From: Amphibalanus amphitrite
Lineage: Eukaryota; Arthropoda; Thecostraca; Balanomorpha; Balanidae
Length of the DNA: 64,000 nt
Reading direction: 5' to 3'
NCBI RefSeq assembly: GCF_019059575.1
Contig: NW_024882999.1
Span: 62,001 to 126,000 of the forward strand
The translations under genes and the position numbers were made by a program. Below the pieces are notes generated by a model. That model saw only the letters and a list, made by a program, of their open reading frames with translations. It did not search any database and was not told where the DNA came from. How positions within the stretch are numbered: position 1 is the first letter of the stretch; each line of letters begins with the position of its first letter. Below, piece by piece: positions 5,552 to 60,152 of the stretch.

Positions 5552-7320
5552 CGCACAGTGATGCAAATGGGGTTCACGAGTGGCCATAAATACCGAAAAG
5601 GCCCAATTTTCAAGTTCCCCTAATAATCGAATAAATCGTAATATGGCCAGTCAGGCAAAATGTTTGGGGTGTCTCAAAAAAAAAAATCATGTTTTTGTCA
5701 AAACCGGTCTCATGTATGATTGTCAGAAGTCGTGACGTTTTCTATGTCGTAAAATGACTGTCAGATACTCGCAAGTTCAAACGCCGTTAGCGTGCGTTCA
5801 TTTCATACCAATGGCAAAAGTTATGCATGGCAATGATCCCCAAAGCCTGCTGCTTCTAATGCCGGGTCACCAAAAGCCGGATCTCTTTTGGTTTGGCGTT
5901 GATCTAACGATTTGTCATCATGTTGCAATCGCAGTTTTTACTAAAAAAATATTTGCTTTCGTTTCACCTACAGCGGTTTACACAGTGTGTGCCCGTTAGT
6001 CCACCATACCATAGCATTCCCTAATCATTTCTGAGCCGCACTGTGAAGAATTAACCCTCGCCAGCCGAGGGGGGGGGGAGCGGGTGCCGCCCCCCCCATA
6101 GGGTCTTGTTTCGTGATAGTTCCGAACACGCTGGCGATAGAGAGCTGAAACTTGCACACCTGACCTTTGATTCAAGCCGGATCTTTTGACACCAACCGCA
6201 TTTTCGGGTCAGGTTAGGTCACTGACCTATGACGTCATAAGTGAACCTCTGCACGGTCTTCAGATGTCGCAACTTCGCAACGCCCTCACTGCCAGAGAAG
6301 CTTTCACAGAGAAATGAAACTTGCAGGATCTAGTATCCATTAGGAGTCTCACAACTTCTATATTTCGAACTTTTCCTAAAGGTCATATGAGGTCAGGTCA
6401 TTTTCGTAACCTCACCATTATAAGTCAATGGGGAAAAATGAAAACTGCTATTCTGGCGCGGGGCCTTAAAGGCCCCCCCGCCCGGAATAGGGTTAAGTTT
6501 TCGTCCGTTGCGGTCGGGTGCCGCGGCGCGGGCGGGCGGCCACAGCGAAGGTTCGTCGGTGCATACCTCTGCTGTTCCTAAACGAAGCGTCCTAGCGCCT
6601 CGCGACAAAAACCAACGGATTGCTCTTGACAAGATCTCGCGAGTGAGCATATTACTTTTGACTTAAGGTCAATATTTGACCTACTTGTAGCAGGTCAAAG
6701 TCAAACGTCTGTCGAAATTGCAAATCCTCGGTTAAAGCAATTCGCCCACCCGCCGCCCACCGCGACACCTGACCGTGCCGGACAAAAACTTCAATAGCGC
6801 CGGTCTGCCCTGTGCTAGCGCCTTTAATTCTTTCACGGTGTGACTCAGAAATGATTGGGGATGGCTAAGGCATAGGGGACTAACGGGCACACACTGTGTA
6901 AACTGCTGTAGGTGAAACGAAAGCAAATAATTTTAAGTAAAAAACTACGATTGCAGCATGATGACCGATGGTTAGATAACCGCCAAAACAAAGAGATACG
7001 GCTTTTTGTGACCCGGCATTAGAAGCAGAAGGCCTTAGGGATCATTGCCATGTACACTTTTTTGCAGTTTGCATGAAATGAACGCACGCTAGCGGCGTTT
7101 GAATTTGCAAGTACCTGACAGGCATTTCACGACATAGAAAATGTCACGACTTCTGACAATTATACACGAGGTCGGTTTTAACAAAAACATGAAAGCTGTG
7201 TGCTTTCAGATTCCCCAAACATGTCTTTGTTTGGCCATACCGCGATTTACTCGGTTTGGTAAACCTGACTTTTTGGTATCTATGGCCACTCGTGAACCCC
7301 ATTTGCATCACTGTGCACCG
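5552..7320. mobile_element. Foldback element with arms of about 490 bp
   Basis: The left arm (5552-6052, starting CCGCACAGTGATGCAAATGG) is the imperfect inverted repeat of the right arm (about 6830-7320). The arms match up to a central TTAA, where a TTAA-specific element (6051-6496) and about 330 bp of other sequence now sit. This looks like an originally near-perfect palindrome opened by insertion at its centre. There are no coding regions. The 82-residue frame in the left arm is not supported by anything protein-like. Confidence 0.8.
6051..6496. mobile_element. TTAA-bounded hairpin element, copy 1
   Basis: It begins TTAACCCTCGCC and ends CGGAATAGGGTTAA. Each end carries a G-tract/C-tract hairpin (about 6068-6098 and 6458-6480), with different inner palindromes: GCGGGTGCCGC on the left, GGCCTTAAAGGCC on the right. 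The interior contains AGGTCA-type half-sites and a TGACGTCA. It lies at the centre of the foldback element. Confidence 0.75.
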
Positions 7321-7436
7321 CACAGTTTAGTTCTGCCGGTATTTAGTACATAACCTACTCCGTTGGCATTAACTGTTGAGATAATATTTAGCTGTATTTC
7401 TGAGCATGTGGCAAACGGTCTTGCTAGTAGTTTAAA

Positions 7437-26374
<18,938 letters not shown>

Positions 26375-27090: not shown

Positions 27091-28228
27091 TTAACCCTCG
27101 CCCCGTTGGGGGGGGGGCCATTTTGGCCCCCCCCCTGTGGTTTTTCCTGAATATCAAGAAAACGGCGGCGCGCAGCGCCGCCAAATTTTCAGTACCTTCC
27201 CGGGCATCAATTTGACACCTTCACACCAAATTTCAAGTCTTAGGTCACCTTAGGTCAGGAGTTATTGAGGTCAAACTGAGGTCATGTTCGAGCAAAAATG
27301 AGCAAAAAACATGCAATCTTGAAACGCTCACCAAATCTACAGTTATCAAGCAATTTCAAAGTTCTTTATATGGTCTAGTAGACAAAAAGCGGCGCTACAA
27401 AACTGCTATCTCGGATTTTCAAAATTTTTGGTTTTTGACAAAAAAAAATCAAAAAATTGATTTTTTTAGAAAAACTTTGAAAAAATCCAAAAATTTTCCG
27501 AATTTCGAAAAAAACCGGAATATATGTGATAGTCCCAGCGCTCTTCTATATACATACCAAATTTCAGATCGATATCTCGTATTTTGGCCAAGTTATAGCG
27601 AAAAAACTGTTCAAAAATGATGACGTCAAATTTTTGAACTCAATTTTTAGCATCGATTCGATACCCATTTTATGCAAAAATATTGACTTTGAAATTTGAC
27701 CTAATTTGACCTGACCTTGACCTGACCTTGACCTGACCTTGACCTGACCTTGACCAAAACGTGATCTAAGCTGGCCCCAAAGGCTGCCTGACCCATATAA
27801 TCGCATTTGTCATGTAAAATGGACCATAAAACATGTATTACACGACACTTTCATATTGTGACCCCCCCGTGACCTGACCTCTGTGACCTGACCTGGTATC
27901 AGTGACCTCAAATAGCAAAATATGTGTTTGAAGAACATTTCCCCATCGATGATTTTCAATGAAATGCATTTTACTCGATTTTACAACGCATTTCTTGAAG
28001 TGCCTGTAAACGGTGAAAATTGGACCTTTGACCTGACCTGTGACGTCATCGGTTTGACCTAGGTCAATAAAATTGGGTCACAAGGTAGTTCCCCGTTGGG
28101 GCTATCCAACGCCGTTTACCGCTTGTCGCTATGTTGCGTGGTTCTCGAGATCTTAGGGGGGGGGGCCAAAATGGCCCCCCCCCCAACCGGGCGCGTTGCT
28201 CGGCAGAGCCCAACGGGGCGCGGGTTAA
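27091..28228. mobile_element. TTAA-bounded hairpin element, copy 5
   Basis: Starts TTAACCCTCGCCCCGTTGGG and ends CAACGGGGCGCGGGTTAA. The end hairpins have the inner palindrome GGCCATTTTGGCC and its inverse. The interior has GACCTGACCTTGACCTGACC runs (27705-27760), a TGACGTCA and a GAATATCAAGAAAACGGCGG module next to the left end. Confidence 0.85.
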
Positions 28229-34589: not shown

Positions 34590-34593
34590 AGAT

Positions 34594-37501: not shown

Positions 37502-37721
37502 CCCAGTAAACATGCCGACGTCGGCCCAACGTCGGTTCAACCTCGGCCCGACATCGGCTGGACGTCGGATATGCCCGCATGTTCCGACGTCCAGCCGAAG
37601 TCCAGCCGACGTCGAGCCGACGTCGGACCGAGGTCGTTTGCCGAGGTTGACGAGATCGTTTGTCGTTGGACCGACGGGGCCGACGTCGGCATGTTTATTG
37701 GGACAACGCGCCAAAAATATC

Positions 37722-37914: not shown

Positions 37915-39109
37915 TTAACCCGCGCCCTGCTGGGGGGGGGTGTTTGAACACCCCCCCTTGTGGTTTTTCGCGAATATCTCAAAAACGGCGGCGCGGAGCG
38001 CCGCCGTTTTTGGTACACCTTATCATACATCAATTCTACACATGTTGTGAAAATTTCAGACCAAGGTCATTCAAGGTCAGGTCACCAGGTCACTTGAAGT
38101 GACCTCACCTCATAAAAAGTTTCAATGTCTGTCATAGCTACACCGAGTGACCGATCGCTTTGAAACTTTCAGCGATTGCTAAGAGCAATAGCATGTACAA
38201 AATGTATATCTCAGAATTTTGATATCGATGACCTAAGGTCAGGTCAATTTTGCGACCTCCCCATTATAAGTCAATGGGAGAAAATTGAAATGCGCCTCTT
38301 TTGGACAAAAGACATTATAAACACTCCCTAACACCAAATTACAAGTGTTTTAGACACACTGAATATGAAAATGGTGTCCGTGACCCTTGTTTGTGCCCTG
38401 AGGTCATCTTAGGTCACGAATGGTATCTAACAGTTTTTCGCAAATAACTTTTGATAGAGGCATGCTAGAGCGATGAAAACGCCTTATATGTGTTCAGCTC
38501 GACGATACGGATCGACTGATATGCAACATGACCCTTTCCGGTCAGGTCATGACCTTGACCTGAGGTCAAATTTTCAAGTTGACCTTTCAAGGTCAAGTTA
38601 TAGTTCATTCGATGCGTCTTGACGAGAGGAACACGATGCCGGTAAAAGTAAGCTCGTACAATGCTTGGGTCAAAAGTTATTGCAGAAAAACTGTTTCCGA
38701 AAAAATCGGCCATTTTTGCAGTTTTTGCCCCCTGCAGGCAAAACCGTTGACGTTAGGTCAAGTCTGAGAGAATTATTCAGAAAGGGCGTTAATAGGGCTA
38801 TCGAATGCGCTTTTCCGCGGCGCTGTAGCTCTATTGGTTCCCGAGTTATGCGTTAGCTTCTTGGAAGTTTTCGACATTCGACCTGGAAATCGGCGAAATT
38901 TTGCCTTCAATGACCTCTGGTGACCTGACCTTTGACCTGACCAAAAAATTGACCGAAGTGATTTCGTCATTATTTTTTACGCTCTTTCGAACGCCGCCTT
39001 CCGCGTATCGCTACGTGGCCCAGGAGCCGAGTTACAAGGGGGGGTGTTCAAACACCCCCCCCCCCAGCAGGGCGTGGAAATCCAGGACCCCCAGCCGGGC
39101 GCGGGTTAA
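37915..39109. mobile_element. TTAA-bounded hairpin element, copy 6
   Basis: Starts TTAACCCGCGCCCTGCTGGG and ends GCCGGGCGCGGGTTAA. End hairpins with inner palindrome GTGTTTGAACAC and its inverse. The left end is followed by GAATATCTCAAAAACGGCGG. Inserted in transposon copy 2, and its right TTAA is shared with the next element. Confidence 0.85.
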
Positions 39110-39968: not shown

Positions 39969-40659
39969 TTAATATAGAAGTCCCTGGTCCCATATTGCTG
40001 TTACGTGACACTTATTGGAAAGGGCGACCGCACAATGGATTCATATAGCCACTCTTACACACCTGCACCAACGTTTCCCAAGGTGTCCCTTTGATAAGTG
40101 GCACTTTGGCAAAGTAACACTTGCCGACTGGCCTTTCTATATGAACTGGGCCCGGCCCTGGTGAGTTGCCGGGGCTGAGCCTGACCAAAGGATAGGCCGA
40201 GCAGCCCCCAAGCACTCACCGCACCCGGCTGCGGGCGAGCTCGGCTTACGGGCAATCCCAAATGGGATAAAGTTTCCCGTCCAGTCCGGATCAGGGGGTT
40301 GCGGCGTGGAGGAAGATGTGAGTTTCCTGAGGATATTTTAAATACAGAAGCTTTTTATGAAACATGAAACATGCATTTTGTATTATTTTAACGGTCAAAA
40401 CAGCGGCCGATGTCGGTCCGACGTCGCCCCGACGTCGGCCCGACGTCGGCTGGACCTCAGCAATTGATCTCGGTCCGACGTTGGCCCGACGTCGGCTGGA
40501 CCTCGGCTGGACGTCGGTACATGCGGGCATATCCGACATCCAGCCGACGTCGTGCCGAGGTTGGACCGACGTCGGGCCGACGTCGGCATGCCGATGCCGA
40601 GATGCCAACGTCACCCCGACGTTGGCCGACGTCGGGCCGACGTCGGCATGTTTACTGGG

Positions 40660-41817
40660 CCACGACGGTCATGTGACCTCCCAAGGTCACCGAGGTCACC
40701 TGAGGTCACCATATTCGAAACGGCTGATGAAATCGCTTACGCTGATTCCACTGGTGGTGTTTTCGTCGCAATCGGCCCAGTAGTTCCTGAGTTATAGAAT
40801 GGCTGCCATAGGCTACAACGGTCATGTGACCTCCCAAGGTCATCGAGGTCACCTGAGGTCACCATATTCGAAACGGCTGATGAAATCGCATACGCTGAAT
40901 CGACTGGTGGTGTTTTCGTCACGATCGGCCCAGCAGTTCCTGAGTTATAGAATGGCTGCAATAGGCGAAAACGTAAAGTTGACCTTTTGAGGTCACCGAG
41001 GTCACCTGAGGTCACCATATTCGAAACGTCTGATGAAATCGCATACGCTAAATCGACTGGTGGTGTTTTCGTCGCGATCGGCCTGGTAGTTCCTGAGTTA
41101 TAGAATGGCTGCCATAGGCCACAACGGTCATGTGACCTCCCAAGGTCACCGAGGTCACCTGAGGTCACCATATTCGAAACGGCTGATGAAATTGCATACG
41201 CTGATTCGACTGGTGGTGTTTTTGTCGCGATCGGCCCAGTAGTTCCTGAGTTATAGAGTGGCTGCCATAGGCCACAACGGTCATGTGACCTCCCAAGGTC
41301 ACCGAGGTCACCTGAGGTCACCATATTCGAAACGGCTGATGAAATCGCATACGCCGATTCCACTGGTTGTGTTTCGTCGCGATCGGCCCAGTAGTTCCTG
41401 AGTTATAGAATGGCTGCCCTAGGCCACAACGGTCATGTGACCTCCCAAGGTCACTGAGGTCACCTGAGGTCACCATATTCAAAACGGCTGGTGAAATCGC
41501 ATACGCTGATTCCACTAGTGGTGTTTTCGTCGCGATCGGCTCAGTAGTTCCTGAGTTATAGAATGGCTGCAATAGGGGCCACAACGGTCATGTGACCTCC
41601 CAAGGTCACCGAGGTCACCTGAGGTCACCTTATTCGAAACGGCTGATGAAATTGCATACGCTGAATCGACTGGTGGTGTTTTCGTCACGATCGGCCCAGT
41701 AGTTCCTGAGTTATAGAATGGCTGCAATAGGCCAAAACGTAAAGTTGACCTTTTGAGGTCACCGAGGTCACCTGAGGTCACCATATTCGAAACGGCTGAT
41801 GAAATTGCATACGCTGA
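40660..41817 (-). repeat. 153-bp satellite array, inverted, about 7.5 units
   Basis: The same satellite as at 36767-37501 in reverse orientation. Each unit has AGGTCACCGAGGTCACCTG then AGGTCACC on the plus strand. It ends abruptly at about 41817 where a truncated TTAA element begins. Long minus-strand frames are satellite translations. Confidence 0.95.
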
Positions 41818-42441
41818 ATAGCAATTCTAGACCTCGTAGCGCAAAACAAAGACCACCATTAGACTCCTCGTGACGAGCTGCATCGAATCAATACCCATCT
41901 TTTTTTTTGCAAAATATCAACTTTGAAATTGGACCTAACTTGACCAGACATTGACCTGACCTTCACCAGAACATAACCTAAACTGGCCCCAAAGGTTGCC
42001 TGACCCACATAAATCATTTGCCATGTAAAATGGACCATAAAACATGCATCACACGACACTTTCGTATTGTGACCTTCAGTGACCTGACCTCTGTGACCTG
42101 ACCTGGTGTCAATGACCTCAGATAGCAAAATATGTGTTATACGGACCATTCCCCCAGCGATGATTTTCAATAACATGCCTTTTACTCGATTTTACAAGAC
42201 ATTTCTTGAAATGCCTATAAACGGTGAAAGTTCGACATTTGGCCTGACCTGTGACGTCATCGGTTGAAGCGAGGTCAATATAATTTGGTCACAAGGTAGT
42301 TCCGTGTAAGGGCTATCCAACGCCGTTTGAATTTTGAAAATCGGCCGGTAACTTTCCGAGATCCTAGGGGGGACCGAAACGCCCCCCCCCCCCTTACGGG
42401 TGGAATAGGGTCAACCGATAGCCCTACGGGGCGCGGGTTAA
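41818..42441. mobile_element. TTAA-bounded hairpin element, truncated copy
   Basis: Only the right-hand half of the family is present, joined to satellite at its broken left edge. It ends GCCCTACGGGGCGCGGGTTAA with a G/C-tract hairpin at about 42367-42394. It contains TGACGTCA and GACCTGACCT runs. Confidence 0.75.
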
Positions 42442-42945: not shown

Positions 42946-45900
42946 GTAAATAATCCGAAATGCTTAAGACGAGGTGTTAGTATTACTAATGTTTGTTGTC
43001 GGACTTTCATTCCCATCTTGAGGTGAAATGTTAGTTTCACAACGTTTCAACCAGTTACTTTTCCGGCCGGCGTCAGGTGTTCTTTGCCCTTAGAAAGACC
43101 CAAAGAATTAGAAGGACTCCACAACATCCAGGTTCTTGTAAAAGCCAAAGAACACCTGACGACGGCCGGAAAAGTACTCTGGTCGAAACGATGTGAAACT
43201 AACATCTCACCTCAAGAGGGGACGGAGTCCGACAACCAACACCAGCAACAGGTAAATAATCGCCCGCCCTCTCTATCGTCGGCGGTCAGGATAAAACTGT
43301 TCACATTTTTGATCGCATGACTTTGTCACTTTGGTCTGGGTCTAAACTGGACTGACTCTCTGGCCGAGGTCATGTGATGACCGTGGAAATGTGATGGAAT
43401 GACCCGTACCTGATGACCGATGTACCTATGTTATACGCGGTGACCATTTTAGCAGGCGAGTGGCCTGTCCCATCGATAAGTTTTCGTCCTAACAGGAAGA
43501 CGTCAGCCACCCCAGGCCCAGTGATCCCGAAGGTGATCAACTCGGCCCTAATGGCTCCCGCGACTCGTTGGGATGGGCCCAAAGGGCTCACTCTGTGTTT
43601 TTTTTTTTGCAGAAAATCAAAAGCGTCCACAAATTTTTTGACTTGCCGTCTTCACTACCTTTCCGGACATCAATTTTGCGCATCTCCTAGTAGGGTAAGG
43701 TGCCTAATTAGCGACCCACTTAATTTGAACCGTCATTGCTCACGCTCTGTAGGTGCCACTGTGTTACTGGCTTGATTTTCGGAGAGATCGTTCATTTTTC
43801 TATTAAAATATAGTCATTTTCTGCCCCAATATTCACTAACTTAATTGTAGTGAGCATTTTGGCAAACCATTGCAAAAAACGCTAATAGGGAACTCTTCCC
43901 GATTAGCGACCGGGGAGGGTCGCTAATAAGTCTATGGGTTTCCCCATGTTAAAAATGGCAAAAAATGCGACGCCTGTAAAGATGAAATATGATCTCAAAA
44001 AAGGTAGCCTATACGCAAAGCACTCAATTACTCGAACAGGAACGTTCATCCAACACATTTACGTAAGTAAAAACTGATCACGTGATGCACCGAAGGCGAA
44101 AAGAAGGCGGAAACCCAAATTTTGCGGGCTATCTTGTATGATATTCGAGGTCCGCGCTGAATTCGGCACCCTTGCAGTCGGTGACGACATTTGGCATCCC
44201 CTGCCACACATTGCAAGCTTCACCAACACCTCATTTTTATTTCTCTCTTTTCCCCTTTCTTTCTCTTCTTGAGCTATTTGCGACCATGTCAGGCGCAAAT
44301 AGGAAATATCAGTTGCGACACATTTTTAACCGCCATGCTATGCACAGTTGAGCGATCCACTATGGGAAAACGGCAATCAATTAAAAAAGGAATGTCGATT
44401 AAGAATAAAGAAGGTGCATCATCCTAATGTGCATCGCTTTTCGTCAGAGAGGGCCCAAATACACACGTTTTGGATAAGAAACTCGTTATTTTTATTTAAA
44501 CTCACCTGAAATGTCCCACCAGAAACATCGACTACCGGAAAATAATTTAATTTGATAACCAAAGTATGGCTGACCTTTTGACGATGTTTTTACCCCGTTT
44601 TCTCCTGCCAGTTTTTCTGTAGGGAGGTAGGTCGCAAATCGGAAAGGGTCGCTAATTAGGCACCTTACCCTAATTGGGAATTGGTCATCCCTGGTCATGA
44701 CATATAGGTACCGGGTGACCCAGGAAAAAAACGTTTCTAATTTTGAAAGCCTATCCAAAATTTCCGAAATTTCCGATTCGATCCGAAATTTAGGGGAGAG
44801 GCGGGAGAATTGTGTAGGTAGAGTGGGCAGGTAACACAATTAATGAGAGCATTATTAATAGCCCGAAATAAACGATTTGAAATACCACTATCAAAAGGCG
44901 ACGTAAAGTCATGGCTTCTTTATAAGTCGTAACGTCACAAAGTAACAAGTTTTTCGTGGTATTTATGCATGTAAATATCAAGTAAATTAGCAAGTTTTCA
45001 GTACATTAGCAAATAGCAAGTAACAGATGTTACAGCTAGCTGGCAGGTATTTTGGCAAGTTCAACAAGATTTTTTAGCGAATTTTTCGTGGTATTTAGCC
45101 TTTAGGCATGTGAATACCAAGCAAATTAGCAAGATTTTAGTACATTAGCAAGTTTTCAGTATATTAGCAAGTAACAGGTGATATGGCAAGCTGGCAGGTA
45201 TTTTGGCACGTTCAACAAGTTTTTTTTTTCGCGAATATCTAAGCTTCTAGACGTCCGATCAACACGGGGGAACACCAATCGGTCCAAAAAATTCCTTAAC
45301 CCTATTCCTGGCGGGGGGGGGCTCAGGAGCCCCCCTGAGGTTTTTAGGTTATTTCTCCCAAACGCTTTGAGCTAGGAAGCTCAAATTTTCTGACTTTTTC
45401 TAAAAGGCTTTTACGCAACATTGCTGAAAATTTTGAGTTGATCTGACCTCAGGTCAGGTCACCAGAGGCGGTTTGGTGACCCTACCTCAGAAAAGTTTGC
45501 AATCACGCCAGAGCTAGAGTTTTTTACCGATCAATTTCTTCTCTTCAGGCTTTAGTTAGGGTACCAGTATGTGCAATTTGTATATCTCAGACTTTTAATA
45601 TCTGTGACCTGAGGTCAGGCCAGACTCGTGACCTTTACATTGCAAGCCTATGGGAAAATATTGAAACGCCTTCTGCTTCGTGTAAACGAGTCAAAACCAC
45701 CCAATTCTTTCAGTATTATGGAAGATTATCTCATCGGTGATGATCCTGGTGCCGCTGATTGACAGGGGCACCGGCAAAGGTCATCTGAGGTCATGTGACG
45801 TTATAAATCGTTTTTCTGTCAATAAATCACGACATTAGCACGTGCTCGGCGATCGGTGGTACGAGTAACCATCATATACCAATTTTCTTTTGGCGCGACT

Positions 45901-48900
45901 CGGTCTCGACTCCTTTCACGCCCTCTGTCGATCAGCGTCCTGCATGGGGTCAGTGCCGTGATTTCTTGCTGAAAGACGAGACGGACTGATGAAAGGAGGA
46001 GACAATGGGTTTGGAGGGAAGATAATGTAATAGTGGGGGAGTGGGGAGGAGGTGGGGAAAGATGGTCCCTCTGTGATGGTTTGTCAGCAAAGGGAAGGGT
46101 GCAGTTCGTGGGGCGCCGCCGCCTGTAGTCACTTCCACGTCAGTGCAATGTCTGGCCGGCCGCTAGGTGTCACTGGGTGTTTCATATGAGTCATGGGTTC
46201 ACACAATGCCGCCGCCGAGTACGTACGGGCGTTTGCGGCGCCGATGTGTGTATGGCTGTGGGCCTCGCCGTTCTAATGAATCTTACAGTCTCATCCGATC
46301 CAGTAAGGTGCCATTAGCACGTGCTCGGCGATCGGTGGTACGAGTAACCATCATATACCAATTTTCTTTTGGCGCGACTCGGTCTCGACTCCTTTCACGC
46401 CCTCTGTCGATCAGCGTCCTGCATGGGGTCAGTGCCGTGATTTCTTGCTGAAAGACGCCAAAGAAATTGCCAAATGTATGGGAAAATTAGGCCGTAGAGG
46501 TCGCGATCGCCATTCGCCGGGACACCACGCAGGTACATACCCGGCCGGGGTGAGCGGCGGGTACCTCGGCTGACCGCGGAGGCCGGCGGAGGGAGGTAGG
46601 CGGGGAAAGACTACCTCGGCCACCGACACTACCGAGGAGCGCGCGGCGGGCGCACGAAGTGCGGTGGCACTGACAGTGGGCAGTTTCAGGCCACGGGGAG
46701 GAGGGGGCTGGCAGGAGGTGGAGGGGATGGTGCCGAAATTAAGGAAACCGACCGTTCCGGTGGGGAGGCAGCGACGTCGAGGGGTGAGGGATAATAACGT
46801 CCGAGACCGCTTGTGGCCGCGCAGTGATGCGATGGCGGAGCTAGAGGAGCACTCGGAGCTGCCGGCGGTGTCTTTGCTTGCCCAGTCGGTGGTGTCCGGG
46901 CTGCTGCTGCAGCTTCGAGCGTGGCGGCCGCGAGACGGCTGTCGGGAACGCTGTGACGAGCCGAGTAGACCCAGCTCGGGGAGCGGTATCGCGCGTGGTG
47001 CAGATGGGGCAGGCACGGGCGAGGCAGACTGTTGACACGCCACACGGCGGCGGCCGGTCGGTGCATCATCGTTCGTTCTGCGCGGGCCGGTGCGGGCGCC
47101 GCGGCGGCTCTGAAGGTTAGTCGGTAATCCTGTTTCGGCGTGGAGAGAAGGAATGGCGGCTGATTCCACCGCCGCTGCCGCAGCGGCACGGGGACCTGTA
47201 AGTCGCCCCTGACGTTAGTCGAATGAATAGGTGACTCATCGGGTAGTTGGTGCTGGGGGGAGGCTAGCCCAGTTCTGCGGTCCACTTAGTCCAGCAGAAC
47301 CCCCGGCGGCAACCGGCTGGTGGGCTCGAGAAAGTGGACCGTTTGACGATCTGGTGAGTGTGGGCTCCAGCAGGTTAGTAAGGGAGACGTGACAGACAGC
47401 GGATAGGTATGGTATGGTCAGCGGACCGGTGACAGTGGGCGCTGCTCCATATCCAGCCAGCGTGCCGCGGAATGGGTACGGTCAGAGGACCGGTGAGTGC
47501 CAGACCCAGCGGGCAGAGGAGGGCGCTTCCAGTCAGCGGGCCGTGGAAGTGGGACGGTCAGTGGACCGGTGAGTGTCACTGCCAGCGGGCAGAGGAGTTC
47601 GCTTCCAGCCAGCGGGCCAGGAAGTGGGACGGTCAGCGGACCGTTTTTGAGATCTGTAGTTTTTGAGATCTGAAGGGGGGGGGGGCCGAATCGGCCCCCC
47701 CCGCCAGTTTCTTGTCCCGGCGGAGCCCGCCAGGAATAGGGTTAATCATTTTATGGCCAACGGGACGCGGAGCGAGCCATATCTTGCAGACCACTATCAG
47801 AGGTCGATAAAATGCTTGGAGTTGCTCCAACGAACATCTTAGTCCCACCACTGTCTCCAACTTAGCCCTCGCCTGGCGGGGGGGGAGCAGCCTCCCTAAG
47901 TTTTTTTTCGCGAATAGCGTAAAAGTTGGTGTCGCGTAGCGCCGCAAAATTTGGCACAACGTCTGGGAATGAGCCTTTTGCTACCTATCCTGAAAATTCA
48001 CTGCCATCCGCCGCGTCGGCACACCGGTATCTCCTCACCTTCTCCCCACGCGGCCTTGACTCCCCAACTCACACCATCACACTACTGCATACGGTGACCG
48101 GTCGCACGGTGGATCTGAATGCCAACGTTTGCGCGCCAAAGTCTGAAACAACTAACGATTATCATAAGCTTTGAGATGTTGAAATTTAACATTTTAAAGC
48201 TTCTAATTCAAAAGTTTATATCTGTGCTTTAACGCACTTGTCCTTATTGATTGAGAAAAGAGCGGACTTTTTATCGTATTACCTAATGCGAAGTAACGCA
48301 ATCGAAGTGTGATTTCGGTCCACTGTGCGTTTTCAGGCGCGCTCGATAAAACGCCCAGGCCTGGAGAAAGTTGGAAGGGTGATTTTCTGATCCTCCTTAC
48401 CACAAAATGACCCTAAGCGAAGAAATGCCCGCAGGGCGCTGCCAACGCGTGCCAGCGGCCCTGCTAGTAAGGGCGAAAATCAATGTATGTGTATGCGGAG
48501 CACACCCTTAGCGCTACGATGGCTCCTTGGAGACACCTGGAGAAACCTGTCCCGGCAGAAGGGTCAGGTCCCTCGCAGACGGCGCGGCACGGCGAGAGCT
48601 CAGCGGGTGGCCTAGCCGGAAAGAGGATAAAAATAGCCGACTGGCCCGACCCAGCGAGGAGTGACCGAAGGGTGACCAGGAGTGAATGAGGGAACATACA
48701 CGCGGTACTTACCGAGCAGCCGATAACAGCACCGGACGATTAGAAAGTCACACTATATATGTAGTGGTCTATTATATATTTTTTAATTTTCAAAATTCGG
48801 AATATCCGAGATAGCAATTTGATAGCCACGTTTATTTCTAGTCCACTCATGCAAAGAAATTAGATCTAGCTTACAAACGGAGCTCTTGAAAGCGATTGCC

Positions 48901-51900: not shown

Positions 51901-54900
51901 ATTATCAAATATAGCGATTATCAATTTTAGCGAAAGCTATGTTTCAGCGACATCTATTTCGTCGACTACAATTTGAGCGACTGTCAGTTCAGCGAAACAT
52001 TTCATCGTCCTGTAACGGTGGATTTTTTTCTTTTGCGAGCGTATCCGTACGAATGTTTCCAGAATTTCTCATGGTTATCCGGAACGGGATGGCGGATGTC
52101 GCGCGTTTGAAAGGTCAGCCATTGAGCTCCAAATTTAATGCTACATTTGTCAAAATTTCCAACGGTTCAATTTCACCCCCTCCCTACGCCACCCTGCTCT
52201 TTGTCAATAATGGTGACCAAACGTTTGTTCAGAGATCAATATTGCTTTTGCTTTTTTCGCGAAATTGCCCCGCTTGAATTTGGATCAGTTCCCCATGTTG
52301 TAAAATTTGTTCTTACCCCAAGCACCATACGAATGTCCAGATATTTGGGTGAGGTCCCTGAAACATAGACTGGATTCCCCTGTGCCATCTCTCTAGTTTA
52401 TGATTGGTCCTTGGCATTCCTTCCGTCGCCCTATCTCTTACGTTCCACATTTTCAATTCAAATTTTGCCCGCCTCCTTTCCCTCCCATGCACCCCTTGTT
52501 GGTCGCCCGATGTACATATGTGTCTTTAAAATTCAAATGATGCGTAAAGAGGTGCAACAATTTCCGAAAAGTAGCAAATGACTGACTTTCGTCGCGTTCT
52601 GTCATTCGCTGTAACTGCATCGCTCAATTGGTCTCCCACTGACCACCATATATTCGCTCAATCTGGTTTCGCTGATTCTGGTCCTCGCTAAAGTTGATAA
52701 TCGCTGTGATTGAATTCGCCGACTTGACAATCGCTGAAAAAGCCAATCGCTTAAATTGATAATCGCTGAAAATGTTTCGCTTAAATGTCGTTGGCTGAAA
52801 TGACGTTCGCTCAGGTGTCGCAGAACCATCCTTATGGCCGCCAAAGCGACCTCTGAGGGCTCCACGCTAGCCTCTGGGGGCTCGGCCATGGCCTCTGAGG
52901 GCCCTACGCTGGCTTATGAGGGCCATCAAATGGCATTTTAAGATAGTTTGACGCAGTTTGACTTTATTTATGCTTGGGCCAGTACTTCGGATGAGGCCCT
53001 AAAGGTCGTTTCTCCTGGGACACTCAAGCATGCACGTACCCAGGATTTCGCCCAGGAAGGGGCCACCTGCTCTCGAAGGGGCCCACGGGTCACCCGGGGC
53101 CACTGTCAACCCAGCCAGGGGCGTATCCAGAACCTTTCGATGAGGGGATTGGGCACAATGGGTCCGGTCCCCCTTGCAGACGGGCCCCTCTGTCTGTCTG
53201 TCCGTCTGTCTGTCTGTCTGTCTGTCTGTCTAAGCCCTGAGAAAATGTGGAAAATTGGCAGGTAATTTTTTTTTTGCATGAGAAGTGTCACAGATAACAG
53301 TAGTACTGATAACAGTAGTACTACTGTTATCTGTGGAAGTGTGCATAAAATGTACGGTATTTTATGAGGAAGTGAAGCGAGCGAGCGCCTCAGAGTCACC
53401 TGTGTTGGTCCTTCAGAGGTGTCGGTGAAAGGCCGTCAGATGCGCTGGTGTGGGGTCCTCACAGGCGCCGTTGTGGGGGCCTTGGGGCTTAACCCGGCAG
53501 TTGCTGGGGTATTTCGCCACCCACCGTTTGCTGGGGGGGGGGGGGGGGCGTTAAACGCCCCCAGCCGATAACTCGAGAACCAATAGGCGCAGCGAAACGC
53601 ACGAGGCGGCAACCGAAAGAGCGCGACGAGACGCTTCAGATGAGTACTTTAAAGTTGAATTTTGAGGTCACAGGTCGGGTCAAGGTCAGGTCAAACACCT
53701 GAAATCGGGCTTTCAGTAGCATGGACTTCAGGACTTCGCGATGGGCGCCTTTCGCCATAAACTCTGTCAAAACGGTGCACAATCCATCTTATAAGGCCTA
53801 CAAGAGTATCAGCTTCATATAGGGGTCAGCCAAGCATAGGTCAGGGTCAAGGTCAGGTCAACCGGGTAGGCACATATCCCCGAAAATCAAAACTGATATT
53901 CGCAGCCTGTGACACATGTTTTATAGGTAATTTGGGGCGTAGAACACGATGGTGACATTCATTTTATCATATGTGTACGTGTTTGGCTTAAAAACTTCAA
54001 TTTAAGAAATTCATGTATCATGGTCGTGAAGTAGTCACGAAAAATTGCCAAGATTCAGTTCAAGATTTTGGAAAATGCGGAACGATAATCAATAATCGAA
54101 GATAGCCATTTGATTGATCATGGTATTGGCAGTCTAATGGCATTTACGGCATGTCTGTATGTCTATTCTGTGATTTTATATGATTTTTTGAACATATGCC
54201 GTTTTTGGTCGAAAACTCAGAAATCATGACGTCACTAAAACCTCGATATCTCAAAAAATTTCCGACCGATTTTTTTGAAACTTTGTCACAATAAACTTCA
54301 ATCAATTCCCTACAGGTACCCAAAATTTGGCGCGCCTGCGGCGCGCCGTTTTTATGCTATGGCCCGGCGAAAAAGTGGGGGCGTTTAACGCCCCCCCCCC
54401 AGCAACTCGCGGGTTAAAGAACTGGTGGGGGCCATCATAGGCGTGTGTAGGGCCCTGAAAGTTACTGTGGCCCTTCATAGGCCGGCAAGGGACCCTCAGA
54501 GGCCGGTAAGAGGCCCTGAGAGTCGCGGGTAAGTGACCGTCAGATGCGCTGGCATAGGGCCCTCGGAGGCGCCGGTGTGCGGGCTCTCAGAGCCACGGAA
54601 GTAGGCCCTTAGGAGGTACTGGTGTGGGACCCTTAGAGGTGGCAGTGAAGGCCCTCGCAGGCCCAGTTGTGCTGGCCCTCAGAAACACGGTGTGGGCCGT
54701 GGGGCCATAGCAAACGGGTATGGGGCCCTTACAGCTGATCCCTCATTGGCCAACAAGGGTCCCTCAGAACCCGGCGTGGGGCCCTTCTGGAGACAAGTGT
54801 GGCTTCACAAGAGCCCATGGGGTGTTCTCACAAGCCCTGTGGTCTCCTTTCCAGTTGAAGCGTTGCCAGCGCGGGCCCTCTGCCGCCAATTGGAACCGCA

Positions 54901-57900
54901 GGGCCTCTCGGGCCCGAGTGGACCCTAAACCCTATAACAGACACGTGCCCCCTCGCCCCTGGCTATACCATTGAATCCAAGTGATCAGGGGCCATTCAGG
55001 TGATCAGGGGCCTCTCAGGTGACCAGGGGCCTTTCAATTGACCAGGGGCCCACCAGGTGACCAGGGGACCCTTTGATGACCAGGGGCCGGTTATACCAGG
55101 GGCGCCACGGGTAACTAAGGGCCTTCATGTGACTGCAGGGGCCCTTCATATAACCAGGTACTCCCCGGGTAAACATGGGCCCCTCAGGTGACCAGGGTTT
55201 CTTCAGGTCACTGTCCAGGGGCCACCCAAGGGGTCAGGGGCCCCTCAGGTAGCTAGGGGCCCCTTAGATAGCCAGGGGCCCCTCATATACCCAGAGGCCC
55301 CTCTGGTAACCAGGGGCCTCTCAGATAACCAGCGGCTCTCAGGCAATCACGGGCCCCTTAGGTAATCAGGGGCCACTCAGATAACCAAGGGTCCCTCAGG
55401 TAACCAGGGGCCCCTCAGATAGCCAGGGCCCTCAGGTAACCAGGAGTCCTTCAGATAACCAGGGGCCCCTCAGATAACCAGGGTCCCTCAGACAGCCAGG
55501 GCCCCTCAGACAACCAGGGGTCCCTTAGGTAACCAGGGGCCGCTTAGGTAACCAGGGGCCCTTCAGATAACCAGGGGCCCCTCAGGTGACTGGGGGACCC
55601 TCAGGTAACCAGGGGGTCCCTCAGGGCCCCCGTGGCCCCCCTTAGGTACGTCACTGCACTCAAGTGACCCAAACGGCCCACTTGCATGCTTGATGCCAAA
55701 GGGGGAGGCCATGGCCTCTTGGCCTCCCCCCTGGATACGCCACTGCTCATTTCATTCAAAACATCCATAATGTATTGTGCAAGCTTTTGTGTGCAGCACT
55801 ATGGAGTTAAAAATTTCACTTGTGGTACACTCATATGCCACCAGTGCTCATTTACCGCGGATTTGCTTTGTCTGCATCAAATTGTCCACAGAGAAAAATC
55901 GTGCTGAAATTCTGACCTTGAGTTAGACGGGCAACTATGAATCCAATGGGTCTGTAATGGTGAAAATATTTTTGTTGCTGCAGGAAAAAAAGAAGCATTT
56001 CTAATAAGAATATGTTCGATTGCGATACTCACAGACATGTTAACCCGCGAGTTGCTGGGGGGGGGGGGGGCGTTAAACGCCCCCACTTTTTCGCCGGGCT
56101 ATAGCATAAAAACGGCGCTCCGCAGGCGCGCCAAATTTTGGGTACCTGTAGGGAATTGATTGAAGTCTATTGTGACAAAATTTCAAAAAAAAAATCGGTC
56201 GGAAAAATTTTTGAGATATCGAGGTTTTAGTGACGCCATGATTTCTGAGTTTTCGACCAGAAATGGCATATGTTCAAAAAATCATATAAAATCACAGAAT
56301 AGACATATAGACATGCCGTAAACGGCATTAGACTGCCAATACCATGAACAATCAAATGGCTATCTTCGATTATTGATTATCGTTTCGCATTTGCCAAAAT
56401 CTTGATCTGAATCTTGGCAATTTCTCGTGACTACTTCACGACCATGATAGGTAGGGTAGACCGGGGCAAGTCGCCCCGCCGAGGTAAAACGCCTCACCGA
56501 TGTTTCTCGGAACTGACAAGGTTCTGGGGAAACATCCTCTCTTCTATAAAACGTGCACTATATGATCATTATATGAGCAGACTGGGAACAAATTGTGATG
56601 ACTCTTTAGGGAGATATAGCCAAAAATTTGAGTGATTTTTATGTTTTGTAGTCAGATTATGCATCATGGCGTTCTTTTATGGTCCACATCAGGTTAACGA
56701 CTTGTATGTATTTTGAACAGCTAGTGTTCAACGCTTATAATAATGGGTTGGTCCGTTTTAAATTATCTCTTGCTGGAGTGCAAGGCGTTGTTCTCTGACC
56801 GAACCACGTGATGGGGTAAAACGCCCCAGTAGGTCGCGGGGCAAAAAGCCCCATGGGGCGTTTTACCTCATGTGTTGTACCGAATACCCACTTCCTAATG
56901 CTCGGTAACTGGCGAACAGTAAGTTTCTATGCAATTTTATGTGCTTTTCTCAGCAAATTAATGGTGAAGGAAGTATTTTGTTAACATTTGCATTGCAATA
57001 ATTTATTATTTGGCCTTATGAGGCAGGTGAAAAACCTGTACATACAATAGTGTCATAGCTGAACACCTGACAGGATGGAAGGTGCTAACTTCTTCAGTGC
57101 CGTGCCTCCCAAGGTCTAACGGGCCTCTCATATAAGATTTAGTCAACTAGCACGTTTAATCTTCGATCCAGAGTATGGGGCTTCTTGCCCCAGGCCGTGG
57201 GGCGTTTTGCCCTGGGGTTGGGGCAAAATGCCCCATTTGCAGTTGCTTCACAAATCACTTCCTAGCTGGGAGTTCGATCATAAGTGAATGAATTTGAGGG
57301 GTGGAATTCAAAGTAAAATGTCCAAAGAACGCATTGAGCACAAATTTGGCCTTCCAGGTGATGTGGGACAACAGTTATGTAGCAAAATAAATTATCTGGG
57401 GCGTCTTGCCCCAGGCAACGCCCTACATACATTTCTTAAATTGAACTTTTTGAGCCAAACACGTACACATATGATAAAATGAATGTCACCATCGTGTTCT
57501 ACGCCCCAAATTACCCATAAAACATGTGTCACAGGCTGCGAATATCAGTTTTGATTTTCGGGGATATGTGCCTACCCGGTTGACCTGACCTTGACCCTGA
57601 CCTATGCTTGACTAACCCCTACATGGGGCTGACACTCTTGTAGGCCTTATATGATGGATTGTGCACCGTTTTGACAGAGTTTATGACGAGAGGCGCTCAT
57701 TGCGAAGTCCTGAAGTCCATGCTACTGAAAGCCCGATTTCAGGTGTTTGACCTGACCTTGACCCGACCTGTGACCTCAAAATTCAACTTTAAAGTACTCA
57801 TCTGAAGCGTCTCGTCGCGTTCTTTCGTTTGCCGCCTCGTGCGTTTCGCTGCGCCTATTGGTTCTCGAATTATCGGCTGGGTGCGTTTAACGCCCCCCCC

Positions 57901-60152
57901 CCCCCCAGCAAACGGTGGGTGGCGAAATACCCCAGCAACTGCCGGGTTAAAGGGACCCTCCCACCTTCAAAAAAGTTAATGAATTGGCACGAAAGTGATG
58001 TCGCTCGGTTCAGAAAGAGCGAAAACGAATATCTACCAAATTTCATCGAAAAATATTCACCGGTTTTCAAGATATTAGACTTTTACTTTTGTTTACTTTT
58101 TGGGATCTCCGCTGTTCCTAGCGACTTTATTTGAAAGTGCGGCATTTGTTGCGCGCAAAGCCGCATATACCACCGCGTGCTACCAAACGCTTTAGTAAAA
58201 GATTTAAAAATCGTTAGATCTCCGCTGACGTCACAAATTCTAAGGGGGCATACCAATGCACTAGCCCCTTAGAATCCGAAAACTGCAAGTTTGAAATTCC
58301 ATATCTCCGAATTAAAGCATTTGTCGATGTTGTGAGTGCCCAAACCGGTATTTGCAGGCCATGGCCACCAATTTGGCTATCTCAACTCAAAACTAATGTT
58401 AAGGTGGGAGTGTCCCTTTAACAATATTCCTTCGGCACAGTTTATTCTCGAATAATGAATGTGAAAAACGGTTCTACAATCTACATGGCTTCTGAACTAG
58501 GGCCTATATGCGAGCATACGCCTTCTGCACGAATCTCGTATACATACTGCCATTTCTGAAGCACTTGAGACCAACGAGCGACTGTATCAATGCAATGCGG
58601 CTAATCTCGGGCATTTGTTGCGAGATGTGCTGGTCGGTGAAAGAAGCTGGCCGTCTTGCCCTACCCATGTGACCGTCTTACCCCATGGGGTAGGGTAAGA
58701 CGGGTTTTTGCAAGGTTTTGCAAAAATAGCTGCGGTTTATTTGTTGAATCAGGTCTAAGTCTCATCTTCTGGCAAATGGAAGTAAAATGTCTAAAAAAGG
58801 TTTTCACTCAGTTTCCCGTTTCTATATGATGTTTCTAACCGGCCGAAAAATGGCTCCAAGTTAAGGTGCCCGTCTTACCCCACTTTCCCCTATGCATGTA
58901 TGTGTGTAGGTATACTGTATGGTTAAAACACATATGTGTATTATGTGCATTGACACTTCTAGTTCTATCCTATAACAACAACGTTGTGACATTGCAGCAC
59001 TGCTATGGTAACCGTCGGGACATTGGCTGCCTGTGCTCCAAGGATTCACATTGTGTGGGCAGGTCCAAGTGCATCAACTTCCTGTGCGGAGGCGAGGTGA
59101 GCAGCCATAGTGCCTAGTGGGCAGAATATGAATTAGTGATTATCAGAGGCCAATAAACGTTCGATAACGGCCGAAAAAGAAATAATATCATGCGTAGTAT
59201 TTGAGTCAAGTAGGTAGGTGAAGGTATGTATAAGTTATGTACACCCAGTCTTAAAAGTACCGCGCATCGGTGTGGTGAATCAACCAAGCCCGACTGCGGA
59301 AGGGCTGTTAAATTTGAGTGACCGAACCGTTGGACATCCTTACCTATACATCCCCCAGGTTGGGGGTGCTAAAACTGAGTGACCGAACCAATTGACATCC
59401 TCATCCATCCCCCAGGTCAAATGGTTCGGTCACCCTCAAATTTAGCAGCTCTACCTCAGTCGGGCTTGATGAATCCACCGCACCGACGCGCGACACTCTC
59501 GAGACTGACTACGTTCAGAAATGGGAAGAAATTCAATCGGTTCCCAGATGAATTTGTTAAAAAGTCATATCTGGTGTGCTATCCCATCACAAATGTGAAT
59601 GAACCGTTTTGTACGAGGATAATCATTCTGACATGATTGGCATGTCATGGCATGGCATGACGTTCTGATCTGTATTTTAAGTGAACATCGCTGCCTTTTC
59701 AGGACCCGTACTGGCGGTACAACTGTCCGTCGGGCTTTATCGCGTGCGCGGGCCGGTGCTACGCGCGCCTGCACGTGCCGGTCGAGTACGGCCAGGCGGA
59801 GCTGGACTGCGCCGCCGTGGGCGCCATCCTGGCCGTGCCGCGCACCCGCGACCAGAACCTGTGTGTGGGCGGCCTGGCCGGCCTCGAGGGCGTCTGGCTG
59901 GGCATCACCGACCGCCAGGAGGAGGGCGTGTTCCAGGGCGCCGACGGCCGTCCGGTGACGGCCACAGAGGGCCAGACCTGGGCCACAGGCAACCCCGACA
60001 ACAACGGCGGCAACGAACACTGCGTGGAGATCAGAAACCAGCCGCCCAACTTCCAGTTCGCAGAATGGAACGACTGGGTGTGCACGGGGGTTGTCAATTA
60101 TCCTATGTGCCAGCTGCCAAACGTCAAATATAAACATAGACCTCAAACATAA
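42745..60152 (+). CDS. Secreted C-type lectin, three exons
   Basis: Exons 42745-42945, 58998-59096 and 59703-60152 (all phase 0) give 249 residues. Residues 1-28 are a signal peptide (AALCALLPLASVVSA core). Residues 68-100 are a six-cysteine module, and residues 103-239 a C-type lectin domain with WLGITD (165-170), NPD (197-199) where EPN or QPD is usual, CVEI (207-210) and WND (222-224). C136/C236 and C207/C227 fit the two canonical disulfides, and C108/C119 an extra N-terminal one. Expected to bind a sugar in a calcium-dependent way outside the cell, probably in defence or adhesion. Ligand specificity cannot be called because the key triplet is altered. Intron 1 is about 16 kb of nested elements; intron 2 is 606 bp. 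An undetected exon inside intron 1 cannot be excluded. Confidence 0.9.
42956..43249. mobile_element. Foldback insertion at the lectin exon 1 donor
   Basis: Arms of about 94 bp (42994-43087 and 43147-43238, TGTTGTCGGACT at one end, AGTCCGACAACC at the other), with a loop of about 60 bp. It is flanked by a 12-bp direct repeat AGGTAAATAATC (42944-42955 and 43250-43261), which includes the exon 1 donor, so the insertion duplicated the splice site. A 12-bp duplication is long for a cut-and-paste element. Confidence 0.65.
43262..43690. other. Lectin intron 1, unassigned
   Basis: An open frame on each strand (43413-43775 plus, 43370-43630 minus), neither with a recognised motif or good splice borders. 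I do not call a gene. Confidence 0.35.
43693..44670. mobile_element. 978-bp TA-flanked element with GGGTAAGGTGCC ends
   Basis: Perfect 25-bp inverted ends that start GGGTAAGGTGCCTAATTAGC, flanked by TA (43691-43692, 44671-44672). No transposase frame. Length and TA flank are like the 977-bp insertion at 56450-57426. Confidence 0.9.
44945..45225. repeat. Tandem duplication, about 133 bp
   Basis: TTTTTCGTGGTATTTA...AAATTAGCAAG and TGGCAGGTATTTTGGCA both occur twice at the same spacing. The internal AGCAAGTTTTCAGTA motif recurs more often. Confidence 0.65.
45833..46457. repeat. 146-bp direct repeats spaced 479 bp
   Basis: 45833-45978 and 46312-46457 appear identical (CATTAGCACGTGCTCGGCGA to GCTGAAAGACG). 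The 333 bp between them is unique. This could be a tandem duplication or a very short terminal-repeat element; the repeat does not begin TG or end CA as LTRs do. Confidence 0.8.
46480..47300. other. GC-rich block inside lectin intron 1
   Basis: GC- and CpG-rich, with long overlapping open frames on both strands (for example 46429-47169 and 46686-47285 minus, 46664-47035 plus). None has a recognised motif and high GC alone yields long frames. It might be an alternative promoter or captured host DNA. Confidence 0.35.
47390..47645. repeat. 75-bp tandem repeat, about 3.5 units
   Basis: GGTCAGCGGACCGGTGA-type starts at about 47417, 47480, 47556 and 47631, with AGCGGGCAGAGGAG and CGCTTCCAG between them. 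Confidence 0.75.
47863..48780. other. TTAA-family end fragment and unassigned DNA
   Basis: TTAGCCCTCGCCTGGCGGGG at 47863 and a GGGAGCAGCCTCCC hairpin, then TTTTTTCGCGAATAGCGTAA, mark a decayed left end of the TTAA hairpin family. I did not find its other end. The rest is unassigned; a 68-codon frame at 48483-48689 has no recognised motif. Confidence 0.4.
49914..50593 (+). repeat. E-box-rich interspersed repeat, copy 3
   Basis: Nearly identical to copy 1 over its whole 680 bp, including the GCACGTGCGCACGTGC palindromes and the CTCGCTCCGTTAGTCGCCCC end. Copy 3 lies in the lectin intron, about 48 kb from copy 1. Confidence 0.85.
51806..52826. mobile_element. Foldback element with AGCGA subterminal repeats
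   Basis: 1021 bp. The left 200 bp has about 13 units of roughly 17 bp around (T)(C/T)AGCGA(TTATCAA). The right 230 bp has a similar number in inverse (TCGCT, TTGATAATCGCT). The ends match (GGTGCGAGCGA / TCGCAGAACC). It is flanked by a 10-bp direct repeat CATCCTTATG (51796-51805, 52827-52836). Tandem-repeat arms with a 9-10-bp duplication recall Foldback/MULE-type elements. No gene in the central 580 bp. Confidence 0.8.
53195..53232. repeat. (CTGT)n microsatellite
   Basis: About nine tetramers of CTGT/CCGT within the hAT element. Confidence 0.85.
53489..54417. mobile_element. TTAA-bounded hairpin element, GCGTTAAACGC subfamily, copy 1
   Basis: Starts TTAACCCGGCAGTTGCTGGG and ends CAGCAACTCGCGGGTTAA. 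Both end hairpins have the inner palindrome GCGTTAAACGC between G- and C-tracts. The interior matches 56040-57950 in reverse and lacks the 977-bp insertion found there, so it is the empty-site reference. Inserted in the right arm of the hAT element. Confidence 0.85.
54975..55640. repeat. Degenerate 20-bp tandem array
   Basis: About 30 units of the form CAGGGGCCCCTCAGGTAAC, with GATAACC/GGTAACC/GGTGACC variants. Forms the right subterminal arm of the hAT element. Confidence 0.85.
55754..56039. other. Lectin intron 1, unassigned
   Basis: No element or exon recognised between the hAT element and the next TTAA element. Confidence 0.4.
56040..57950. mobile_element. TTAA-bounded hairpin element, GCGTTAAACGC subfamily, copy 2
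   Basis: Starts TTAACCCGCGAGTTGCTGGG, ends CAGCAACTGCCGGGTTAA. Reverse-orientation relative of 53489-54417, with a 977-bp insertion at 56450-57426. Its right TTAA is shared with the next MITE. The interior includes GGTCGAAAACTCAG-type and AGGTCA motifs. Confidence 0.85.
56450..57426. mobile_element. 977-bp insertion with GGGGCAAG.CGCCCC ends
   Basis: The interrupted sequence is intact in the relative at 53489-54417 (CATGATACATGAA), so the borders are visible. The ends are GTAGGGTAGACCGGGGCAAG and the inverse of GTAGGGCGTTGCCTGGGGCA. The duplication is ATA or TA. Many internal GGGGCAAAA/GGGGTAAAACGCC motifs. No transposase frame. Confidence 0.85.
57951..58417. mobile_element. TTAA-flanked MITE (AGGGACACTCCC ends), copy 2
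   Basis: Inverse-orientation copy of 13364-13852, flanked by TTAA (57947-57950, 58418-58421), the first shared with the preceding element. 467 bp. Confidence 0.85.
58998..59096 (+). CDS. C-type lectin exon 2 (six-cysteine module)
   Basis: Acceptor ACATTGCAG, donor GTGAGC, 33 codons, phase 0. Six cysteines with spacing C-x8-C-x-C-x5-C-x5-C-x4-C (HCYGNRRDIGCLCSKDSHC and on to NFLCGGE). It resembles EB-type or knottin-like disulfide modules; the exact family is uncertain. A symmetric phase 0 exon that could be skipped without breaking the frame. Confidence 0.8.
59256..59491. mobile_element. Palindromic MITE in lectin intron 2
   Basis: Arms of about 80 bp. Left CGCGCATCGGTGTGGTGAAT with CAAGCCCGACTG, right the inverse ending CCGCACCGACGCGCG. 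The repeated GAGTGACCGAACC lies inside. Takes up over a third of the 606-bp intron. Confidence 0.75.
59703..60152 (+). CDS. C-type lectin exon 3 (lectin domain)
   Basis: Acceptor CTGCCTTTTCAG. It encodes the full domain from DPYWRYNCPSGF to MCQLPNVKYKHRPQT and a TAA stop. GC-rich third positions contrast with the surrounding AT-richer introns. The long minus-strand frame over the same bases (59565-60146) is a shadow. Confidence 0.95.
   Translation, partial: DPYWRYNCPSGFIACAGRCYARLHVPVEYGQAELDCAAVGAILAVPRTRDQNLCVGGLAGLEGVWLGITDRQEEGVFQGADGRPVTATEGQTWATGNPDNNGGNEHCVEIRNQPPNFQFAEWNDWVCTGVVNYPMCQLPNVKYKHRPQT

Follow-up and report, generated by a model that had tools for sequence, protein, structure and literature searches.

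The TTAA-bounded elements of a 64-kb stretch of the Amphibalanus amphitrite genome (C1502:62001-126000, the whole stretch that was analyzed, hereafter the window) are very probably non-autonomous, MITE-like members of the piggyBac superfamily, whose family-specific terminal palindromes would serve two-fold recognition by a protein and not a fold of the DNA. Their boundaries are TTAA, their tips are CCC, and their two ends are asymmetric, the long end carrying the tip motif in near-duplicate. Full-length elements of the same layout contain an open piggyBac frame, with the T. ni-type motif of the cysteine-rich domain (CRD) wherever that region is readable, and the arms of the palindromes covary at the level of families. 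What had appeared as an odd 'fold covariation' becomes a testable recognition code.

TTAA-bounded elements of the window

Ten TTAA-bounded elements with 19 ends make up ∼12.1 kb by summed coordinates, about 19% of the window, which confirms the earlier observation of TTAA-bounded elements with terminal palindromes. TTAA starts all 19 ends, on both sides of nine elements and on one side of the tenth (E7), and is followed by a CCC tip at 18 ends and by CCT at one (11862, strand -). The window contains 19 copies of the string TTAACCC, against a shuffle mean of 9.75 (a count of 19 is reached in 2 of 100 shuffles), and all matches except that at 8660-8666 are element ends (18/19).

E1 (6051-6496, no strand assigned) is bounded by two short-type ends of different families, with tips TCGCCAGCCGA and TATTCCGGGC, and is probably a mosaic. 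E2 (9654-10663, + strand) is non-autonomous, with the short-end palindrome TCGGATCCGA at about 9681-9690 and a long end at 10663 whose core is degenerate (TATT); a long end at L014:507 combines the E2 tip with the core TCGGATCCGA. The non-autonomous E3 (10660-11862, - strand) has the core CATTTTTTG at its short end (hairpin 11817-11845) and CACTTTTTTG at its long end, and is 89% identical to E4 (14007-15204, + strand), likewise non-autonomous, with the core CTATTTTTTG at both ends. E2 and E3 have the TTAA at 10660-10663 in common, as do two elements at locus L034 with theirs, an arrangement expected if one TTAA-specific element inserts into the TTAA that borders another. E5 (27091-28228, + strand; core CCATTTTGG at both ends, palindromes 27109-27135 and 28156-28184) and E6 (37915-39109, + strand; core TGTTTGAACA at both ends, palindromes 37934-37957 and 39038-39061) are both non-autonomous. 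Only the right-hand part of E7 is present (41819-42441, + strand), with a long end at 42441 (core CGTTTCGGT); its left end is missing, and 153-bp tandem repeats lie left of about 41819. These tandem repeats, in opposite orientation, also flank E6 (36767-37525 and 40521-41892), the second block abutting the truncated E7. E8 (45296-47745, + strand) has the same tip at both ends and palindromes that differ, CTCAGGAG at the short end and CCGATTCGG at the long end (47678-47702). E9 (53489-54417, - strand), non-autonomous, and E10 (56040-57950, + strand) belong to one family with the core CGTTAAACG, found at both ends of E9; E10 contains an extra internal stretch and is 94% and 96% identical to E9 in two aligned parts.

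All seven inner palindromes named in the preliminary description are present in the window, and the unlike palindromes that it reported for the two ends of E8 are real, recurring in another copy of the family (L039, 976-1970; cores CCTCAGGAG and CGATTCGG). Its statement that each palindrome remains self-complementary was too strong: the arms beside the G and C tracts do pair, but the central one to three bases are often unpaired (CCATTTTGG, TGTTTGAACA), and imperfect or broken ends, at 10663 (TATT), 42441 (CGTTTCGGT), 14007/15204 (CTATTTTTTG) and 6051, contradict universal self-complementarity. Three points were absent from that description, namely the existence of two kinds of end, the repetition of the tip motif in the long kind, and the widely varying length of the G tract.

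Two kinds of end with a common geometry

The short end has the layout TTAA-CCC-(family tip motif)-G tract-core-C tract. The long end reads TTAA-CCC-(tip motif)-G's-spacer-(tip motif again, identical or similar)-G tract-core-C tract. Ten of the 19 window ends are of the short type and nine of the long type, the latter with a spacer and duplicated tip motif, comparable to the insertion and duplicated motif in the right end of T. ni piggyBac.

The geometry was read from the 95 short and 37 long ends that could be parsed under a minimum G run of 6 and a maximum core length of 11 bases. The core is centered at bp 24.5-34.5 in short ends (n=95) and at bp 52-63 in long ends (n=37), and most of this scatter is the length of the G tract: after subtraction of the G-run length, the median center is 18.5 (sd 0.64, n=95) for short and 45.5 (sd 1.16, n=37) for long ends, a long-minus-short offset of 27 bp. 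Among the short ends, the 28 whose G run is no longer than 8 have the core centered at 24.5-28. Core size is 8-11 bp in 94/95 short and 34/37 long ends, and G tracts measure 6-18 and 6-16, respectively, limits that are partly built in because the parsing cut-offs imposed them.

A second hairpin stands at short (left) ends of nine tip families, from about bp 62-85 after the TTAA. Examples lie at window 54329-54347 (-), 45366-45385 (+), 27164-27182 (+) and 37980-38012 (+), and in L039 near 6400 (-). Its stems, of 7-15 bp, are family-specific (GGCGGCGC, CGCGGCGC, GGCGCGCC, TTTGAGCT), its loops are mostly GCA, GGA or GTA, and in one copy (L090) the loop is inverted. Among 33 long ends, scanned over at most their first 130 bases, only that of E8 has a stem at all, 6 bp long and unrelated. 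The second hairpin is possibly an extra binding site or a real DNA hairpin. By eye, a motif like TATCTCNRGAACC also recurs just inside several palindromes (for example near window 10590, 15119 and 28148) and is common to otherwise diverged families.

Genome-wide abundance and covariation of the arms

Pattern searches of the genome (807,550,619 bases, 2,644 contigs) document a very large load of TTAA elements, with more than 40,000 short-end matches in 807.6 Mb. The pattern TTAACCC-N11-GGGGGG matches at 20,272 forward and 20,211 reverse places (40,483 in all), against 19 + 27 = 46 for its reversed control. The tip-free pattern GGGGGG-N7..11-CCCCC gives 276,155 and 280,961 matches against 3,996 and 5,391 for the control, totals that include overlapping matches, often several per place.

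Covariation was assessed in 80 short ends of contig C1, drawn in positional order from 100 listed genome-pattern places (the first 82 listed, minus those at 42924 and 1729057). Parsing succeeded for 69 of them, with 11 unparsable, and yielded 27 tip types, some only one base apart; the 25 types with a core of 7-11 bases entered the pairing count and hold 23-25 distinct core types. When the commonest core of each tip type is taken, the outer arm positions pair in 59 of 75 cases, against a shuffled mean of 25.4 and maximum of 44 (0/10,000 shuffles reach 59), and counting distinct cores only (n=23) gives 53/69 pairs against 23.1 (0/10,000), in shuffles that treat families as unrelated and so ignore kinship. 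A sample independent of the tips behaves alike. It was built from 44 hand-read places of the tip-free pattern by removing repeats, reverse complements and cores outside 6-11 bases, and its 31 distinct cores, a set that still holds some unrelated G/C stretches, pair at 61/93 positions against 32.1 shuffled (0/10,000). Since pairing lies far above the shuffles, palindromes of unrelated sequence obey a common symmetry rule. The covariation noticed beforehand therefore stands at the level of families (59/75 and 61/93 pairs, and a table of 17 families considered below). Inside a family the core is nearly clonal, as for TGTTTGAACA (10/12 in tip GCGCCCTGCTG), TAAATTTTA (6/6) and CGGATATCCG (6/6).

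Full-length piggyBac relatives

The genome contains 116 matches to PF13843 (DDE_Tnp_1_7), many without stops, and 50 of these regions were read for ends. G-tract ends in the layout of the window elements flank a transposase at six loci in three families, so the autonomous relatives with matching termini whose search had been proposed do exist. One family accounts for four of the elements (L032, 2343-6317; L034, 1215-5185; L035, 1239-6057; L036, 1155-5131), and the others are at L039 (510-6482) and L050 (1533-6255). In 6/6 elements, the transposase frame begins on the side of the short (left) end and runs toward the long (right) end. The L039 element carries the E5 tip motif and cores similar to those of E5 (CCAATTTG and CATTTTGG). 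In the L032 family, the tip motifs differ between the two ends. Three G-tract families have a full-length partner with both ends seen, and the 50 regions read, out of 116 matches, contained none for most of the MITE families.

The encoded proteins match PF13843 with E-values of 9.3e-60 (L050), 2e-64 (L039) and 2.2e-69 (L034). For the L050 protein, the closest solved structure is T. ni piggyBac (6x67/6x68, E=1.2e-56), with an alignment that extends through the CRD; piggyBat scores 4.6e-21. The catalytic aspartates of PB are D268, D346 and D447, and the aspartates aligned with these positions (D294, D378 and D477) are invariant in 4/4 aligned proteins. The signature CxxC-CxxC-CxxH-CxxC is invariant in L050, L039, L034 and L028 and is also present in L036; it corresponds to the published motif of the T. 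ni CRD (PMC8086355). The CRD is readable with this motif in 4/6 full-length loci, and is unreadable in the open frame of L032 and L035. Judged by its sequence, the domain is predicted to be PHD-like, of the T. ni type.

A tree built from 25 distinct proteins (27 of the 50 loci; a motif filter left out the other 23) places L032, L034, L035, L036, L039, L050 and L028 in one clade, with support 1.000. For L028, the only candidate long end found is at L152:1025 (core TTGGTGCGA). TTAA at both boundaries, CC(C) tips, a PF13843 partner (for three families) and the aspartates all agree with membership of the piggyBac superfamily. Kolobok is another TTAA superfamily.

A further group, L014-L024, was considered as a partner, as L020 lies between G-tract ends, and was rejected, since the L020 element carries tips of its own and sits inside a G-tract MITE. 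These 11 loci represent a 2,681-bp piggyBac element without G-tract ends, and the 99.3-100% identity of the listed alignments among them indicates recent activity.

Lineages without G tracts and the class of the CRD

Other piggyBac lineages of this genome lack G tracts and have tips such as TTAACCCATTAG. Both ends were paired for eight such families, the L002 pair being doubtful in that sequence common to L002 and L003 begins no earlier than 1018. In 4/8 families, L001, L027, L041 and L042, a palindrome is clear (at least 7/8 pairs); the four sequences are all different, and each is centered at bp 24.5 of the end upstream of the transposase. The left ends of L005/L007 and L014 reach 6/8 pairs and are not counted as palindromic, because the right ends of L014 and L042 also attain this level; L002 and L011 have 5 or fewer pairs of 8. 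No right-end palindrome of at least 7/8 pairs occurs among the eight families. Further lineages without a usable end pair (L012, L025, L026, L029-L031, L033, L037, L038, L040, L043, L045-L049) are uncounted. The order of Cys and His residues, compared by eye, is closer to the Pgm/pBat kind in L001, L002, L005/L007, L011, L014 and L027; in L041 and L042, the C-terminus is unreadable.

These observations permit a tentative generalization, possible rather than probable, that in this one genome the class of the CRD predicts the layout of the ends. A PB-type CRD would go with palindromes at both ends in PB spacing, and a Pgm/pBat-type CRD with a single palindrome, near bp 24.5 of the left end; in the PB clade, about two dozen core types would have arisen as up to four half-sites and the tip motifs changed in concert. 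The comparison sets 4 loci in 3 families against 2 families (L001, L027) that have both a clear palindrome and a readable CRD, so a correlation is suggested, short of established. A passage of a 2021 paper states that no straightforward correlation between end organization and CRD fold was known (PMC8086355), and the link suggested here is the one described there as not seen. If true, the coordinated change of half-sites and tips amounts to a natural library of transposase-site pairs.

Proposed recognition of the palindromes

A transposase had been mentioned earlier as one possible user of the palindromes, and it is indeed the likely one; full-length elements with the same layout encode piggyBac transposases. 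Nothing observed speaks for the replication or insulation role also suggested there. Under the proposed mechanism, full-length piggyBac elements of this genome would supply in trans the transposase that moves the non-autonomous ones. The transposase core would read the family tip motif, in one copy at the left end and in two at the right, and the two CRDs of a transposase dimer would, like their T. ni piggyBac counterparts, sit in neighboring major grooves, on half-sites composed of G tract and arm. Half-site spacing would be set by the core, 8-11 bp flanked by the G and C tracts, and the center of this core, often A/T-rich, could bend; folding of the DNA would be unnecessary. A single type of CRD reading two half-sites with two-fold symmetry would make both arms change together, and the use of one enzyme at both ends would tend to couple their changes as well. 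Because the piggyBac layout is reproduced in the features open to comparison, among them the center of the left end (in ends with a G run of at most 8) and the 27-bp offset, the palindromes can be read as CRD-dimer sites, and their symmetry probably stems from a protein pair and not from folded DNA.

The preliminary description instead suggested that the fold matters and the sequence does not; in this reading, the palindromes would work as a cruciform or a single-strand hairpin recognized by structure. The covariation of arms between families fits this idea, as do the very stable stems that G and C tracts would give and the two different palindromes on one element, E8. The two ends of an element, however, usually carry the same arms. 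In a table of both ends of 17 families, compiled by hand from fetched ends, the first three core bases are alike at both ends in 13/17 families (shuffle mean 1.5; 0/20,000) and the last three in 12/17 (shuffle mean 1.3; 0/20,000), which is beyond what a fold-only rule demands, and which common descent of the two ends could also explain. All three outer arm pairs form in 14/17 left ends and 9/17 right ends, the rest being imperfect, and unpaired arm positions are kept unchanged between copies: the long end TTGTTACGA is imperfectly paired yet unchanged in 5 copies over 4 loci (L032, L034, L035, L036), and the long end CGGGTACGA, also imperfectly paired, is constant in 2/2 copies (L141, L145). 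In the TGTTTGAACA family, 52 copies have changed on the 5' side alone against 1 on both sides, a ratio for one arm position of one family that counts 5'-side singles only. At this single position, the palindrome behaves as a clonal subfamily sequence with no independent compensation, the outcome named beforehand as refuting use of the fold. The CRD dimers of T. ni piggyBac and piggyBat, moreover, are described as binding such palindromes in duplex end DNA. Recognition of folded DNA is not supported by these data and appears highly unlikely.

The same changes bear on a purely mutational origin of the symmetry, in which strand switching in quasi-palindromes flanked by G and C tracts would template one arm from the other, selection playing no part. 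Such hairpin-templated copying should make two-sided changes common, against the 1 versus 52 one-sided changes found at one arm position, and it is at odds with the four lineages that lack G tracts and still have a palindrome in a fixed place. Perfect arms, and cores whose center is inverted from one end to the other (L035 has CAGAATCTG in its short end, L041 CAGATTCTG in its long end), are its expected trace, and the single two-sided change found is complementary; we nevertheless regard strand switching as a very improbable source of the palindromes. If only the G and C tracts and their spacing mattered, the cores could also be neutral spacers that became fixed within each family through a founder effect. 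Near clonality of the core within families, free differences between families and G tracts common to all are consistent with such spacers, which would not be expected to be self-complementary; with 53/69 pairs in 23 distinct cores, against 23.1 shuffled, this account has little probability.

Recognition by a CRD dimer has its own counterpoints. The E8 family (tip TCCTGGC) presents two different palindromic sites, so that either the CRD tolerates both or the element is a mosaic, and the end differences of the E8 and L032 families together suggest a tolerant enzyme or mosaic elements. The right-end inner arm TACGA, in families CGGCCGA, CGGCACA, ACGCCTA/ACGACCA and AGTGGCA, is unlike the left end in all four. 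If the arms are CRD half-sites, one genome holds about two dozen natural end variants, some with their own transposase; such variants would be a lesson in how piggyBac CRDs choose DNA and bear on orthogonal piggyBac vectors.

Other features of the window

A repeat of ∼3 kb is present in two copies of opposite orientation (17740-20792 and 31551-34593), whose aligned pieces are 96-98% complementary; it ends in CAGTYGGTGACA-like inverted repeats and looks like another DNA transposon. A 19-bp imperfect tandem repeat (CAGGGGCCCCTCAGGTAAC-like) spans 54952-55623, between E9 and E10. The open stretch 59685-60152 contains a C-type lectin domain (PF00059, 6e-12). The open frame 7857-8672 (-) has weak matches, below the cut-off of 26.6 bits in each case, to MobB (19.8 bits) and to KDZ transposase (12.9 bits) and is adjoined by an 8-bp tandem repeat (8661-8996). 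An Rfam scan of the window returned no match at gathering thresholds.

Comparison with known systems

In the titles and abstract openings listed by searches of open papers, no description of G-tract palindromic piggyBac MITE families was found. The coral CMITEs, which are TTAA MITEs, are also non-coding and attributed to piggyBac-like transposases, and neither G-tract palindromes nor covariation between families appear in the abstract, introduction and part of the methods of that report (PMC2872659).

The piggyBat element of Myotis lucifugus has imperfect palindromes at its left end and none at its right end (PMC11707139); the left-end palindrome, near bp 19-32 by an inferred position, is bound by a CRD dimer and has an A/T-rich center (PMC11707139, PMC13405395). 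With a palindrome at the left end only, piggyBat resembles the four palindromic families of this genome that lack G tracts. It differs from the G-tract elements in its CRD fold and in the lack of a right-end palindrome; the right-end palindromes and PB-type CRD motif of the G-tract families do not fit the piggyBat type, which L001 and L027 fit better.

The closer counterpart is T. ni piggyBac, with ends LE35 and RE63 and a CRD dimer on a palindromic repeat at bp 17-33, centered at about 25. Its right end has a 17-bp insertion and a duplicated motif, and its CRDs occupy adjacent major grooves, the minor groove between them being narrowed (PMC7351741). The barnacle elements share the TTAA target, the asymmetric ends, the right-end insertion and duplicated motif, a palindrome at both ends with the left-end center at about bp 25, and the CxxC-CxxC-CxxH-CxxC CRD; the offset between their ends is 27 bp, against 28 bp for T. 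ni piggyBac as inferred from the two published lengths, 35 and 63. Unlike T. ni piggyBac, which uses one 19-bp repeat sequence, they place the palindrome within variable G and C tracts and change it from family to family, and nearly all copies seen here are non-coding.
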